Assembly: GCA_036784855.1 (NCBI GenBank)
Contig: JAZDSV010000094.1
Span: 1 to 34,122 of the forward strand
DNA: 34,122 nucleotides
DNA from: Aphelidium insulamus
Taxonomy: Eukaryota > Aphelidiomycota > Aphelidea > Aphelidiaceae
Direction: 5' to 3'
Part shown: positions 1-5,604 of the stretch, piece after piece
How the letters are laid out: each line of letters begins with the position of its first letter
Numbering within the stretch: the stretch's first letter is position 1
The notes under the pieces: generated by a model
The model's input: the letters and a program-made list of their open reading frames with translations, nothing else
Databases searched by the model: none
What the model was told of the DNA's origin: nothing
Position numbers and translations under genes: made by a program

Positions 1-1006
1 GCTCTTTCACTATTGGAAGCAGTGTTTTTAAATCAGTGAACACGACATTCACATTGGCCAGGCCATTGAGGTCTTCTGGATTCAATACAGTGTTGTCAGC
101 GGACTTGTGAATCTTGACTACATCAGACTTGCCTTTTGTTGTGAACTTGGAGTTGTTTGTACTCGCAAAGATACTTTTGCGTAGTGACTGGTCTACAACT
201 GGGTACATGTGATTATTGGCGACGACATACACCAATGAAGTCAACTTGTGGCTGCGTTCAGCTGGTGCATAATGATAAAACACATTGTAGTCCATGTCCA
301 ATGCGTACAATGAAATACAGAACCGCTTACAGAAACCCGCTACTTGTTTTGTTGACACGCCTGCAGCGGCACTGGATTCGCCAAAAATTTCCAATAAAGT
401 GCGCATAGTGATACTCTCGTACGTATCGAGCAGAAACTGATAAACACAGTCATTATCAACAGCTACATTTGGCTCTGCTTTCAAATAGTGATAATTCACC
501 ACTGTGCCAAACATCCTCTCACGCTCCAATGGCTGTGGATTGCTGGGTACATTCTCAGTGGTGTATACTATGCGTTTAGTACGCGTTCGATACGCCTGCC
601 TTCTACAATATTCCTTGCTAACAGCTTCGAGATGAGATTGGACGTCAAGAAGCCCAATATCTCGTATAAAGCCACCATGGTCACGTTCCTGTTCACTATC
701 ATCACAGTGAGTAACATACGAAATATTGTAGTGAACATTGACTAAATCAATGCATGGGTCTTCCATTTCAAATCTTTTAGGAGGTGCATTGTCACCTTCC
801 CTGGTGTCTGAACGTCGGCGTTTGCGAACAATTCCCCCTTGTACATAGTAACCACCACGCTCCATTTGCTCAATGACCCGCGGAGTGGCCTTGATGAAGT
901 CGTTGCTCTTGGTGAGAATGAACCTTGCTTTGCGGCATGCGCCTGCACTCTACAATATACCGATAGATGGCTCATCGCCTGCTCTATCCAATAAAAAATA
1001 GTTCAT
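1..1006 (-). CDS. Uncharacterised protein, 5' part of a gene running off the left edge
   Basis: An ATG at 1006-1004 opens a minus-strand frame that, apart from one TAG at 952-950, stays open for about 316 further codons to the window edge. The product is soluble, with a basic patch near residue 60 (RKRRR) and a well-ordered later half containing GVSTKQVAGFCKRF, LYALDMDYNVF and VVANNHMYPV. The last element recalls large uncharacterised or DNA-polymerase-associated proteins of protist viruses and mobile elements, but that is a weak impression and no polymerase motif is visible in this portion. The start codon overlaps the TGA of the upstream gene as ATGA, which is unusual for a nuclear gene. 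The TAG lies inside an 18-nt stretch (960-943) that begins GT and ends AG and whose removal keeps the frame, so it could be a tiny intron, a nonsense mutation or a readthrough site. Long open length and protein-like composition support real coding. Confidence 0.55.
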
Positions 1007-1473
1007 GCACAGAGCGGTCTTGGCGGCGGACTTATGGCGATTTTAGTGCCAATCGCCACCGAATATTTGTAACTTGGTGATAGGTATATGTACTTTATTT
1101 TTGGACCTGAGACACGCGCGACTCGGCGAACAGGAGTATAGCATGCACCCGTGGCTTTGCTGTGCTTCGTACCCTTTGGACAACGCGCTTGCTTCGGTCC
1201 TTGCTTAACATCTTTACAGCCCTTGGCTTTGGCGTTATAACGCTGTCCAGAAGGACATGGATGCGCTGGAGGTTTGCGTACACGTGCCTTGCGGACCTTT
1301 AGAACGTATCGTCCAGTAGCCGGGTTGATGGTGTAAGCTGGGTCAGATGCTCGCTTGTTGACAATCTTGACCGTATTGACACGAGCAGCAGCCTTGGGCT
1401 TGGAAGGGACAGCGCGAGTGGAAGGTTTTACACAGACTCCCTTGGGTTGCGAACAGTTCCGACTTTCTTGCAT
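1003..1473 (-). CDS. Basic protein with 2-cysteine adaptor-type motifs
   Basis: Unbroken 156-residue frame with an ATG start at 1473. It is strongly basic and contains NPATGRYV (residues 50-57), then two Cys-bracketed units, CPSGQRYNAKAKGC (73-86) and CPKGTKHSKATGAC (98-111). The NPxTGR signature with nearby paired cysteines is characteristic of the 2-cysteine adaptor domain, a small module known mainly from nucleocytoplasmic large DNA viruses, where it is fused to peptidases or kinases or stands alone in basic proteins. No enzymatic domain is visible here. The gene abuts the next one with an ATGA overlap (1003-1006), a compact arrangement typical of viral genomes. The upstream 380 bases are AT-rich. 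It could be an endogenised viral gene or a host gene using the same motif. Assignment of the motif is fairly confident; its origin is inference. Confidence 0.6.
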   Translation of the reverse strand: MQESRNCSQPKGVCVKPSTRAVPSKPKAAARVNTVKIVNKRASDPAYTINPATGRYVLKVRKARVRKPPAHPCPSGQRYNAKAKGCKDVKQGPKQARCPKGTKHSKATGACYTPVRRVARVSGPKIKYIYLSPSYKYSVAIGTKIAISPPPRPLCA

Positions 1474-1654
1474 GGCTTGGCCAGGAGTTCTAAAATTGAT
1501 TTCCGCATTTTTTGTATTGGATAACTTTAGAGAATATTAAAATATTAAAATTAAAAGTGTATCTTCACCGCCGAGGTCCTCCATTCTCCATTCAGAAAGA
1601 TAGACGGGTACCTGTTAATGACAAGAATCACCTTGTTCAATCGGTGAAACATTG

Positions 1655-1854: not shown

Positions 1855-4109
1855 TCAATGAACATTAAGAGTCTCGTTGAATTGACGGAACTGAACCAAG
1901 TACTCCTGCATAATCAAGATAGCGACGTCCCTGTCATCGACGTCAAGCAACCCACGACGTCGTTTCTCCTCGTCGAAACTTATCCTCGTGCTGAAACAAC
2001 TTTTGCGAATACCTTTGGCATGGTTCAACCAGGTGTGGGTAGGTAGGCAGTCAATGACTCGATATTGTCCAACCTCATCCACAACTCTATGCATAATCAT
2101 GAGTCATTGTTATCATCAAATGACTAAAGTACCGGTCAGTGGAAAACTCCGATGCTGCAAACGGAATGCCCAGAATAGGGTCAATTCCACGCAACAGAAC
2201 AATATACTCTTCCAACTCCTGTAGAGTCCAGACCCGAATATCGTCAGTTATCACGCGTCGTCGTTTGGATGCAGACGCATCCGACAGTTGTTGGCGACGT
2301 TCAATGCTCTGGCTGACCCACAAGTTCTTGACCGCGCTTCTTCATTGAAGCGGATAGACGGAAGTTTTTGTCGACGTTGACCGGCCTTGTAGTCACTCCA
2401 GACTTGACGAGCCACTTCAAATTCATCGACAGAATCTTGTCCTTGACAATATCTCTCTCTTCCGGAGTCTTCTTCTTCATCATGCTGCACACGTAAGCAA
2501 TGTGTCAATATCAGGCTGACTTACGAGTTGTACCAATACTGATACTCTTTGGATGACTTGCCCAGGCTCGTCGACAGCCCTGGAGGCGAACAATTTGTCC
2601 GGTGAGAACTTAGGCATACCGTCTCACTGAAGAATTTCAGGACGGTGCCGGAGCAGGATACATCTGAAGAGCTCCATCTTGTTCTTCAATCCAGGCAAGA
2701 GTCTCTTGCACAGTTTCATCGGACCATTCGACGTGAGCATCATCCTGAAGAAAGACCGTCACGGCGCCGTATCGAATCACCGAGAGAATAAGCGAGAGCG
2801 CCCCCCTTTTAGTCGGGCATCGACGCCACGGCTCATTGTGAATGAAGCTATTGACCAGAGCGTCTACAAATGCTGAGACTTCGATTTTCTTCTTTTCTTT
2901 AGCCTAAACAAAGTGTCAGTAAAAGATATCAGATATCAAGCACCAGCCACCACCACCCAACTGATGAAAATACCGCAATCAGGCGGGTGGGTGGTGGCGA
3001 CGATGTGAGTGAGTGATAAGTTACCTTTTGAGCATTAGCAAACACCGACGACTCCATCAGTTTCTGTCGTTTCAACTCAGGCTCGGCAATGCTCTCGGCT
3101 TCCGCCTTGATTGCACGATGCTTGTCCATTTTCTACAAAAAACGGTGTCAGTCAATTAATCAAAGATATCAATAACCCGCCACCACCACCCGATTGATGA
3201 CAATACCGCAAATCAAGCGGGTGGGTGGTGGCGATGATGTGAGATAGTGATATGTACCTTGGCGTTGCGCACCTTGCGAACCTCTATGTGTTGTAGGCAG
3301 TACCAATACTCCCCGACTTGTGCCAATCCAACCGATGCCGCACAGTCAAAGCACTTCTTGCCTTCTTTCGATGCTTCCATTTTCTACAAAAAAGAGTGTC
3401 AGTAAATGTATCAAAGATATCAATAACCGCCACCACCACCCAACTGATGATAATCCCGCAAATCAGGCGGGTGGGTGGTGGCGATGATGTGAGATATGTA
3501 CCTTGGCGTTGTTCTACACAAACAGTGTCAGTCAATTAATCAAAGATATCAATAACCCGCCACCACCACCCAACTGATGATAATCCCGCAAATCAGGCAG
3601 GTGGGTGGTGGCGATGTCGTGAGATATGTACCTTGGCATTTGAGACTGGATTTTTTGCCTGAGTGTGTTCACGGCAACCATCACACTCAGCGTAGAACTT
3701 TCCATTTGGCTTCGTGGAAAACTTAACGATTACACCCTTTTTCACACATCCCTCCTGGCACTTGCTCCTGGAGCAACGTCGAATGGCTAAATCGATTAAT
3801 CCAAATTAAAAATCAGGATAAAAGATCCACCTACCAGTTGCCGCTGGTGATGATGGAGGTGAAGGTGGCAATCGATGTCCAGATGTTGCATTATAGTAGG
3901 CCGCGCCACCATCATCTACATCGTTATATCGACGCCTTCCACTACATTTCATACTTTTTGAAGAAGAGAAGGAACGGGAACCGTCGCCGGCAACATCTAT
4001 AGAGGATAAGCTCTGAGCAATCTGACCAATAGGAACTAACCCGATGAGCCACTAGAATCACCACCAGAATCACGACTTGAAACAGCACTTGTAACCAAAG
4101 GCGAAGAGT
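1855..4109 (-). CDS. Unrecognised zinc-binding-like protein, multi-exon gene carrying four introner-like introns
   Basis: I do not recognise the family. Coding exons on the minus strand are 4109-4041, 3996-3835, 3786-3632, 3513-3502, 3383-3258, 3132-3025, 2903-2644, 2608-2525, 2484-2382, 2326-2133 and 2086-1855. Every junction has GT and AG and all phases fit, giving about 500 residues without the first exon. The N-terminal part is Ser-rich. It is followed by CSRSKCQEGC...YAECDGC and CFDC...YWYC, which look like zinc-binding clusters, then a Lys/Glu-rich helix, an acidic compact region (EWSDETVQETLAWIEEQD), a Ser/Pro linker and a basic-to-acidic C-terminal half. The first six exons and their phases are the best supported. 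From 2644 downwards alternative frames exist: a stop at 2637 if no splice is used, and an ATG at 2617 opening another reading of the same exons. The first exon, probably around 4240-4470 (a protein-like frame starts with ATG at 4470), could not be joined with certainty. Confidence 0.6.
2904..3024 (-). repeat. Introner-like intron, copy 4 (most diverged)
   Basis: A 121-nt minus-strand intron beginning GTAACTTATCACTC and ending ACTTTGTTTAG. The paired arms, the loop and the TACTGACAC element are retained, but the 5' end and the GATATC region differ from the other three, so it is the oldest or most altered member. It follows an AAG codon and is phase 0. Confidence 0.8.
3133..3257 (-). repeat. 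Introner-like intron, copy 3
   Basis: A 125-nt minus-strand intron. It matches copies 1 and 2 but has a small insertion just after the donor (GTACATATCACTATCTCAC) and a few substitutions in the loop and left arm. The flanks are again AACGCCAAG upstream and AAAATGGA downstream. Phase 0. Confidence 0.85.
3384..3501 (-). repeat. Introner-like intron, copy 2
   Basis: A second 118-nt minus-strand intron, the same length as copy 1 and differing from it at only a few positions, mostly near the 3' end (CTCTTTTTTGTAG). It has the same GTACATAT 5' end and the same inverted arms. Upstream it is flanked by AACGCCAAG and downstream by AAAATGGA. Phase 0. Confidence 0.85.
3514..3631 (-). repeat. Introner-like intron, copy 1
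   Basis: A 118-nt intron on the minus strand running from GTACATATCTCAC to TGTTTGTGTAG. It shares almost its whole length with the next copy, including an inverted pair of CCACC-rich and GGTGG-rich arms around a short loop, the GATATCTTTGAT block and a TGACTGACAC branch-site-like element about 20 nt before the AG. It sits in phase 0 after an AAG codon. Confidence 0.85.
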
Positions 4110-4602
4110 CTAAAAAGTGAGTTCAAACAATATTAAAATAAAAATTGGCTTAGCGTTATCCACGGCGCAATCTTCTCGTTCAGTAATAAACTCGCGTCCA
4201 AATGCCAGGCCATTCCAGTGTCAGTTCACAAACAACCAGCCGCTACCCCCGCGGAATCACGTTCGATGCCGCAAGCGGCGATTGGTCATCGTATGGGGGC
4301 AGTAACGCAGTCTCCTTCGTGCAGCATACACTGCGGACTAGGGTGTGTTTGATAGTCGAGGGACTAGAGGGACTCCCAGCGGACAGTGTTCCGTCCAGCG
4401 TCAACCGGCACAGCTTCAGCACGCGCCCACGCGCGCACGGCATACCAGCAGACAGCCTCATGCGCTTCATCTCTGAGTTCACCTAATATGGCGTGTTAGC
4501 CGGTACTTCCACTCGGTATTCACGCTACCGAATTCATCGATTTCCAGTAGCTGATCTGCTCTTGTGTGTAGCGCGCTCGGAACATTTTGTGAGAAAGGAA
4601 AA

Positions 4603-4609
4603 TATAAAG
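4603..4609 (+). promoter_or_regulatory. TATA box of the SAP-domain gene
   Basis: TATAAAG lies 40 nt before the ATG at 4643. With the usual TATA-to-start spacing this leaves a very short leader, and it argues that the ATG at 4643 is the true start although the frame is open further upstream. Confidence 0.5.
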
Positions 4610-4642
4610 TGGCGTTCCCAGGGTTATCTCCAAACTTCAGAA

Positions 4643-5263
4643 ATGTCGACGAATCAACAAGAAGCCGCTGATGAGCCAGAAAGGGCCAGGGACGCCACCT
4701 CACACCCGCGCTTCAGCACTTTGAACGGGCACAATTATTTCGTGGCTCCCGGCGCGACATTCAGCAACAACCATTCGTTCTTCTTTGGCTGTCGCAATCC
4801 TGTCGATGTCATGGAATTCCAGCGTCAACTGGGTGACGTTTACCCGCAACAACATCAGCGACACGATGCAGCCACCACTCAGCCTGATGCAACTGCCACT
4901 GTACCAGCGAATATTGATGGCTTGTTTCGTACCGAGAATGGCAGCAACGTCTATGTCAGCCAGGGTGCTACTGTCACCAACAACCACTCGTTCTATTATG
5001 GTTATCGCAATGCCGAGGAGTTTATTCAACTCCACAACCAGCTCGCGGTTCCAGCCAATGAAGAAGTCCGCGCGCCTGCATCACAAGAGCCAGTGCGTCC
5101 GCCTCCCGCTGCCTCATCATCGTCCCAGCTGGTATCACCGACCCCGACACAGAAGCCGCAAGTACGCGTCACAGACTTGAAGACAGAGCTGTCGGCACGT
5201 GGTCTGCCAACTGGTGGTACCAAGAAGGAGTTGGAAAAGCGCTTGCAGGATAGCGAGAAATAA
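4643..5263 (+). CDS. SAP-domain protein with a duplicated N-terminal module
   Basis: Single-exon gene of 206 residues starting at the ATG just after the TATA box. Two copies of a roughly 36-residue module are visible (about residues 28-63 and 99-134), each matching the pattern VxxGATxxNNHSFxxGxRN followed by a QL-ended helix. A Pro/Ser-rich linker leads to a C-terminal SAP motif (about 176-206: VTDLKTELSARGLPTGG then a KKELEKRL helix). SAP motifs bind AT-rich or scaffold DNA, so a chromatin or nuclear role is likely. I do not recognise the repeated module. SAP proteins occur both in hosts and in large DNA viruses, so its closeness to the 2-cysteine gene is suggestive only. The stop codon overlaps an AATAAA (5259-5264), a possible polyadenylation signal. 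Confidence 0.75.
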   Translation: MSTNQQEAADEPERARDATSHPRFSTLNGHNYFVAPGATFSNNHSFFFGCRNPVDVMEFQRQLGDVYPQQHQRHDAATTQPDATATVPANIDGLFRTENGSNVYVSQGATVTNNHSFYYGYRNAEEFIQLHNQLAVPANEEVRAPASQEPVRPPPAASSSSQLVSPTPTQKPQVRVTDLKTELSARGLPTGGTKKELEKRLQDSEK

Positions 5264-5604
5264 ATCCGAGACAGTATAGGAGTTTTAGAATGAATATATG
5301 TTCCCATTTTCCGCTGTAAATAGTGCGTGGTATCCAGGCGTGTCACTAGTAAAAAGCGGGATAGAAATCCCGACAGCATTTTAGCCTAAGAGAGTAATTG
5401 GGAGACTAAAGGTGGCAGTAATAGTAGCGACTATAAAACCGGGGGCGTGTATATGGGGGGGGGGGGGGGGGGGTAAATTGTATAATGCGCAAATGGAGAC
5501 AGACCGAGGACCGCCTAAATAGCTTTGTCGCGGGATCTGTTGCTGGGTAATTAAATATGCTGTATAGAGTTTTATATACATATTTATGCACTGAACACAT
5601 TCAG
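5264..5604. other. Non-coding spacer with a 19-G run
   Basis: No gene is evident. The stretch contains TATAAAA at about 5432 and an uninterrupted run of 19 G at 5455-5473, which is able to form a G-quadruplex. A splice acceptor-like TTCAG at its end precedes the first visible exon of the TMEM135-like gene. Confidence 0.5.

Follow-up and report, generated by a model that had tools for sequence, protein, structure and literature searches.

In this work, we have analysed four near-identical introns of one gene in a window of 34,122 nucleotides from Aphelidium insulamus (the whole stretch presented here; contig JAZDSV010000094.1, assembly GCA_036784855.1). Our results show that these introns join the exons of a mosaic gene, that every further copy found lies in the same gene family, and that this gene family is carried by a family of mobile elements bounded by terminal inverted repeats (TIRs). 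We propose that ectopic recombination and conversion between the homologous introns probably shuffle the cassettes of this modular element gene and homogenise the introns that link them. The pattern from which the original prediction started is true and unusual, and the naming of the introns as introners, which is supported in part, appears to be one step off.

The window gene lies on the minus strand, and its four repeat introns are located exactly where they had been predicted. Intron 1 (3514-3631, 118 nt) joins the 5' module A to cassette N, intron 2 (3384-3501, 118 nt) joins N to cassette E, intron 3 (3133-3257, 125 nt) joins E to cassette K, and intron 4 (2904-3024, 121 nt) joins K to the 3' module A3; each runs from GT to AG, and all four are in phase 0 after AAG, as had been claimed. 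Their pairwise identity is 0.80-0.92, compared with a mean of 0.49 and a maximum of 0.57 when one of them was aligned with 300 shuffles of another, whereas E, K, the start of the 3' module and the end of the 5' module share 0.49-0.54 with each other, which is the shuffle level. The pattern of like introns between unlike exons in the window is real and beyond chance, and it is that of homogenisation of the silk and mucin type. One intron used as query against the window gave no match beyond these four. With respect to the exons, module A (3632-3952, with an ATG predicted by eye at 3952) is common to loci L039 and L046, starts with MKCSGRRRYNDVDD, contains PPSPPSSP and Cys pairs, and is interrupted by an ordinary 48-nt intron at 3787-3834, also predicted by eye. 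Cassette N (3502-3513) is a 12-nt micro-exon coding for NNAK that is also present in L039, L043 and L045, E (3258-3383, 126 nt) bears a CxxC...CxxH pattern and occurs in six copies in five loci, and K (3025-3132, 108 nt) is shared with L041. The 3' module A3 (2637-2903) is open for 88 aa here versus 126 aa in L044 and L050, its frame being lost. The gene had been described as having absorbed its introns without damage; this holds for the joints, at which the frame is kept, but not for the last exon, in which the window copy is frame-broken.

A BLAST search of the assembly (17.95 Mb, 169 contigs) with one intron as query gave at least 34 matches, all in 13 loci, and a search for the 28-nt core with up to three mismatches gave at least 31, all within the same 13 loci, with none for the reversed-pattern control. 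The stretch around the introns was read in all 13 loci, and the same kind of gene was found each time. The introner family of the original prediction is borne out by near-identical introns that are alike up to the splice sites, differ from their exons and reach at least 34 copies, but not by their location: further copies at AAG sites in unrelated genes had been named as what would establish such a family, and all 34 BLAST and 31 core matches (both lower bounds) fall in one gene family, with none in a non-paralogous gene. As these 13 loci, all members of a single mosaic family, hold every match, there is no sign at this sensitivity of spread to unrelated genes, and we reject a genome-wide introner. 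Searches with the module proteins revealed three relatives that lack a close copy of the repeat intron, on contigs C86 and C88 and in a fragment on C110. Within the family, all 34 introns are GT-AG and carry CTGAC within their last 30 nt, and AAG precedes 32 of them; retention would bring in a stop in frame in every case, and the length is divisible by three in only seven.

The 13 genes have a common layout: a 5' module drawn from several alternatives, cassettes from a set of five small ones, and one of several 3' modules, all joined in phase 0 by one kind of intron. Under the module names assigned in this analysis, and written as 5' module, cassettes and 3' module, the window gene is A-N-E-K-A3, and the others are A-E-N-E-P (L039), B-R-E-V-S (L040), B-K-P (L041), Y-E-G (L042), Y-N-S (L043), T-V-E-A3 (L044), Y-R-N-S (L045), A-R-S (L046), Y-R-M (L047), Y-V-V-V-F (L048), T-G (L049) and B-A3 (L050); the A of the window, the B of L050 and the G of L049 are diverged forms of their types. 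No two loci have the same order. The internal cassettes are all multiples of three and free of stops (21/21). Two hallmarks of exon shuffling through introns are present, phase-symmetric exons and the same exons in 13 different orders. No blastp-short match at E 10 was obtained between cassettes E, R, V and K, and the exons are here unrelated cassettes, not the copies of one repeat that characterise silk and mucin genes. Plain tandem duplication, against which the original prediction had been set, is contradicted by the unlike exons of one gene and by the differing orders in which the same exon occurs between copies.

Exchange is evident from the 5' modules A and B and the 3' modules S and P, which are present in all four combinations (A-S in L046, A-P in L039, B-S in L040 and B-P in L041). 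Recombination is required, since no tree without it allows all four. Over the 300 nt beside the joint, identity is 0.99 for A (L039/L046), 0.99 for B (L040/L041), 0.93 for P (L039/L041) and 0.81-0.94 for S over six pairs (L040/L046 0.82, L040/L043 0.94). It falls from 0.99 to 0.50 across intron 1 in L039/L046 and from 0.99 to 0.51 across the joint in L040/L041, and between the window and L050 it rises at the last intron from 0.46 (300 nt before) to 1.00 (100 nt after). These steps lie mostly close to the splice sites. BLAST alignments over the shared halves extend for 1.1-2.4 kb at 84-93%, some of them continuing through a joint. In L048 a cassette-intron unit is repeated with no exon mismatch and 2/122 intron mismatches.

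The introns do not share the history of the exons beside them. The mean identity of the 34 introns is 0.80 counting gaps and 0.843 ungapped, the core being the most conserved part (about 0.90). We compared 11 intron pairs, which overlap and so represent fewer than 11 independent events, in which one flanking exon is 98-100% identical and the opposite one is unlike or too short. In nine of them the intron is back near the family level of identity within about 15-30 nt of the identical exon; only the tandem unit of L048 and the L043/L045 pair, whose members are close relatives, depart from this. The two E exons of L039 are identical in 126/126 bases, and their introns differ from the fourth base after the donor and from the fifth base before the exon. 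Near-identical exons beside introns of ordinary family likeness mean that introns have been exchanged independently of exons. The cassettes have in addition diverged at silent sites (pS 0.29-0.66) more than the introns have (about 0.16-0.20). When the donor part was grouped by the upstream exon and the acceptor part by the downstream exon, the observed difference was reached in 349 and 1057 of 2000 shuffles. Four of the six groupings of an intron part by a neighbouring exon are ordinary in this way (349, 1139, 360 and 1057 of 2000). The other two, in which donor and core are grouped by the downstream exon, deviate weakly (12 and 25 of 2000, with differences of 0.041 and 0.011). The expectation of a simple crossover, in which the donor tracks the upstream and the acceptor the downstream exon, was not seen in these groupings, and the two outliers are not ones that this model would single out.

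Introns are somewhat more alike within genes than between them (0.826 versus 0.802; 10/2000), and this is weaker when L048 is left out (0.821 versus 0.807; 104/2000). Variants private to the introns of one gene occupy 18 columns against a shuffle mean of 2.4 (0/2000), and 16 against 2.1 when the tandem locus L048 is left out (1/2000). As 14 of the 18 columns belong to two indel blocks, one in the window and one in L042, they correspond to about six independent events in four loci. The best candidate for a chimeric intron is intron 1 of L043, which may derive from introns 1 and 2 of L045: its right half is clean (8/8 sites), and in its left half three sites agree with one parent, two with the other and four with neither.

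The mechanism that we favour starts from the layout of the element genes, each of which begins with a 5' module and ends with a 3' module, with at most three small cassettes, or none, in between; every joint is occupied by the same phase-0 intron of roughly 120 nt, so that any joint-to-joint exchange keeps the frame. Between introns, both inside one gene and across dispersed copies of the element, homologous recombination and ectopic gene conversion would then add, drop and swap cassettes. Conversion would keep the introns alike and detach them from their exons, because it stops where homology ends, at the splice sites, and the crossovers associated with it would rearrange the exons in frame. 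We infer that recombination at the DNA level is the route. In a toy model in which 34 introns replace one another, an ungapped identity of 0.843 needs about 0.6-0.7% mutation per replacement, and swapped introns are predicted beside exons about 99.3% identical; exons of 98-100% were found. This agreement is a consistency check and not a proof.

Could the intron itself be the mobile unit, inserting at phase-0 joints or replacing the introns there, with the mosaic of exons as a secondary outcome? The likeness reaches the splice sites and the introns mostly do not follow their exons, as such an introner would have it, and a stable hairpin is predicted in the four window introns (z -2.80, -3.69, -3.66 and -3.95), stable folding having also been predicted for fungal introner-like elements (PMC3443670). 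However, no copy was found by either search beyond the 13 loci, and the hairpin arms start by eye about 25 nt from the donor, inside the intron, and are therefore not its ends; inverted repeats at the intron ends, a feature of DNA-type introners, are absent by eye. Furthermore, in the diverged relative on C86 (L068) a homologous, E-like cassette is cut at the same joints by a different pair of introns, which are 81% alike, lack a strong hairpin (z -0.12 and -0.91) and share with the other 34 a mean of 0.53-0.54 (maximum 0.58), the shuffles having a mean of 0.50 and a maximum of 0.57. We consider a mobile intron unlikely. Since the C86 joints hold another intron type, the joints look older than either type, contrary to the recent copying that had been suggested. 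As judged from the sequences, and from one diverged lineage only, in which the introns are alike within the lineage and unrelated to those of the other lineage at the same joints, the joints look old and the intron sequence looks homogenised within lineages. In the relative on C88 (L069), which belongs to the same gene family, a T-like and a G-like module are joined by an intron with a predicted hairpin (z -2.50); this intron is somewhat like the 34, with a mean identity to them of 0.565 and a maximum of 0.618 (shuffles 0.481 and 0.563). The hairpin was also considered as an essential feature and rejected, given the C86 introns without a strong one and the lack of compensatory change at any of 15 predicted pairs across the 34 intron sequences. 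In the same C86 gene, a 41-nt intron (L068 1165-1205) has its first 15 nt in common with 15 nt (1359-1373) of the next, 105-nt intron, as if donor ends alone had been exchanged too.

Precise copying of exons could in principle also proceed through RNA, by trans-splicing or with a spliced cDNA as donor, the copied exon then ending exactly at the splice sites. The drop in identity at the junction on both sides of an exon, as seen with the E exons of L039, would be accounted for in this way, but cDNA templates would remove introns, whereas every joint still has one, the same boundaries follow more simply from conversion between introns, and no reverse transcriptase is present in the 10 stretches scanned with Pfam; a route through RNA is accordingly quite improbable. 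Ordinary duplication of one multi-exon gene, with diverged exons and conserved functional introns, agrees with the paralogy of all the loci, with the 98.7% identity of L043 and L045 over 3.0 kb and with the conserved intron core, but it has hardly any likelihood left, being contradicted by the four 5'/3' module combinations (which would otherwise take the independent replacement of several modules), by unrelated exons at the same position and the same exon at others, and by a synonymous divergence of the cassettes that exceeds that of the introns.

Recombination between introns would operate in a gene family that is carried by a family of TIR-bounded mobile elements. In 11 of the 13 loci the first repeat intron is preceded, at a distance of about 1.6-2.0 kb, by a TIR; on C92 it is on the 3' side instead, and on C108 none was detected within three mismatches. 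The TIR starts with a run of C (7-22 in the ends read) followed by ATATACACGCCCCCGG or nearly so. In the window it occupies 5311-5473 on the minus strand and opens with 19 C (5473-5455), the searched core being 5427-5455; no second end was found in this contig at three mismatches. Genome-wide, the TIR occurs at 27 places, forming seven facing pairs 4.2-11.4 kb apart, with none for the reversed control; the reading of the TIRs covered 20 of these places, those on C14, C58, C76, C85, C92:125803, C110 and C157 lying outside it, and in the C22, C32 and C124 elements it took in the near ends. No target-site duplication was seen by eye at the four elements with both flanks (C1, C42, C86 and C97). 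Just outside the TIR of contig C22 there is a perfect 132-bp self-inverted stretch, probably rich in TA repeats (L039 731-862, in sense coordinates).

In the 10 stretches scanned with Pfam, which are parts of elements, the only matches were to superfamily 1 helicase, to SAP and, below threshold, to RING, and neither a transposase nor an integrase was recognised in these partly covered elements. The large elements read, on C97 and C1, code for a RING-like protein below the Pfam cut-off and for a protein of about 1035 aa whose helicase domain belongs to superfamily 1 (PF13245, 1e-13; PHROG Dda-like, 7.2e-38). Named relatives of the latter are found in Obelidium mucronatum (48%) and Chytriomyces (43%), both chytrids, and the relatives of the element would by themselves suggest a chytrid-like fungus as host. 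An ABC-F protein of the window has, among its named matches, Pyropia (51%), Jaapia (47%) and Gorgonomyces (41%). By eye, the C-terminal stretch of the C1 helicase protein (L067 2412-4415, plus strand) resembles an HNH endonuclease, with no such Pfam match, and two distant relatives, P0007 and P0008, are annotated with PF01844, an HNH family. Among the viral contigs searched, from which records near this genome were possibly left out, there was neither a relative of the helicase nor an exact match to the intron core. The SAP protein of the elements (PF02037, 1.5e-9 and 5.1e-10) is represented in the window by an ORF at 4487-5263 on the plus strand, in divergent orientation, with a C-terminal SAP domain (E 5.1e-10). 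The transcription of this ORF points away from the mosaic gene, and its SAP domain is preceded by a repeated motif (NNHSFFFGCRN / NNHSFYYGYRN). A further ORF at 1003-1536 (minus strand), with INPATGRYV and two CP(S/K)G(Q/T) repeats, lies in the part that the elements have in common, and its copy in L044 gave no Pfam match.

What does the mosaic gene code for? Cassettes E, R, V and K are under purifying selection, with pN/pS of 0.27, 0.20, 0.22 and 0.24, the last value from the single pair of the window and L041; among the modules, S has 0.28-0.30 in three pairs, and Y, for which three of the ten possible pairs were compared, has 0.27-0.56. This selection, together with the in-frame stops that retention would bring to all 34 introns, strongly implies at the sequence level that the repeat introns are spliced, and the gene family looks like a working one. 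In L043 the predicted spliced frame is open for 439 aa across two repeat introns, and the 3' frames of L039 (129 aa) and L045 (98 aa) are shortened. The Cys/His spacing and the basic N-terminus, judged by eye, suggest a zinc-binding nuclear protein as the product. The 3' module of L043 has relatives in P0010 (42% over 53% of the query) and in P0011 from Chytriomyces hyalinus (40% over 35%). We do not claim a nuclease reading of the S module, given its poor model: AlphaFold gave a mean pLDDT of 50.7, and the RNase H-like matches of Foldseek had E of 0.04 or worse. Profile matches to ubiquitin hydrolases of the PDB were likewise discarded, since it is the hydrolase portion of P0011 in the alignment, and not the S module, that produces them. 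P0011 itself combines the 3' domain with a ubiquitin-specific protease in one predicted protein, which may be a fusion or an error of gene prediction. C110 holds, at 96653-97235 on the minus strand, a diverged S-module copy of 38-46% identity, outside the repeat-intron loci and far from the C110 TIR match at 1018; it may be a relic or a host gene.

Previous work has described systems with some of these features. Spider silk MaSp2 genes have nearly identical small introns that are homogenised inside each gene, where they average 97.6% alike, and that diverge from gene to gene, and the intron structure has been proposed to serve homogenisation (PMC9779670); the Flag silk gene is grouped with MaSp2 as an analogue (cited in PMC2576457). 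The near-identical small introns between the exons of one gene are as here, but silk exons are copies of one repeat whereas ours are unrelated cassettes, and the introns studied here are about 80-84% alike, with exchange among dispersed mobile elements. Similarly, SmPoMuc of Schistosoma mansoni is a multigene family with frequent recombination, mosaic genes and concerted evolution of exon-plus-intron repeats (PMC2576457). It resembles the present family in its frequent recombination and mosaic genes; in the same source, however, the break points are evenly distributed along the sequence, whereas here exchanges occur at introns and unrelated exons change their order. Introners, which one screen recognises as groups of at least four introns whose similarity extends to both splice sites (PMC9860276), share with the 34 aligned introns this extent of similarity and, in fungi, the stable folding (PMC3443670), but they lie in unrelated genes, in which none was found here. 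In exon shuffling by recombination within introns (PMC3488318), phase-compatible exons are recombined through introns as in our family, but that paper argues from the domain patterns of old protein families, whereas the combinations found here are recent, because exons 98-100% identical stand in different contexts. Compared with the silk and mucin analogues, unrelated cassettes shuffled among dispersed mobile elements are new; within the scope covered, namely titles and beginnings of abstracts in the open-licence literature, with subscription papers and most preprints outside it, no description of such a system was found.

These results carry a warning for introner screens: the likeness of the introns reaches the splice sites here, and pairs of genes that share no module (such as B-K-P and Y-E-G) might slip through a filter that discards only those pairs whose proteins are similar. 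Exon shuffling through introns has usually been argued from ancient protein domains. With recent combinations, identifiable joints and several recombinants in one genome of 18 Mb, the rate of the process, its break points and the role of intron identity become measurable. We also put forward, tentatively, that the family may be a standing exon-shuffling system, in which a linker intron, maintained by conversion at each joint of an accessory gene, lets any two copies swap protein modules in frame. On this reading, doubtful as it still is, the family would do with introns, in a eukaryote, what cassette shuffling does in bacteria, and would thereby diversify the mobile element's own protein.
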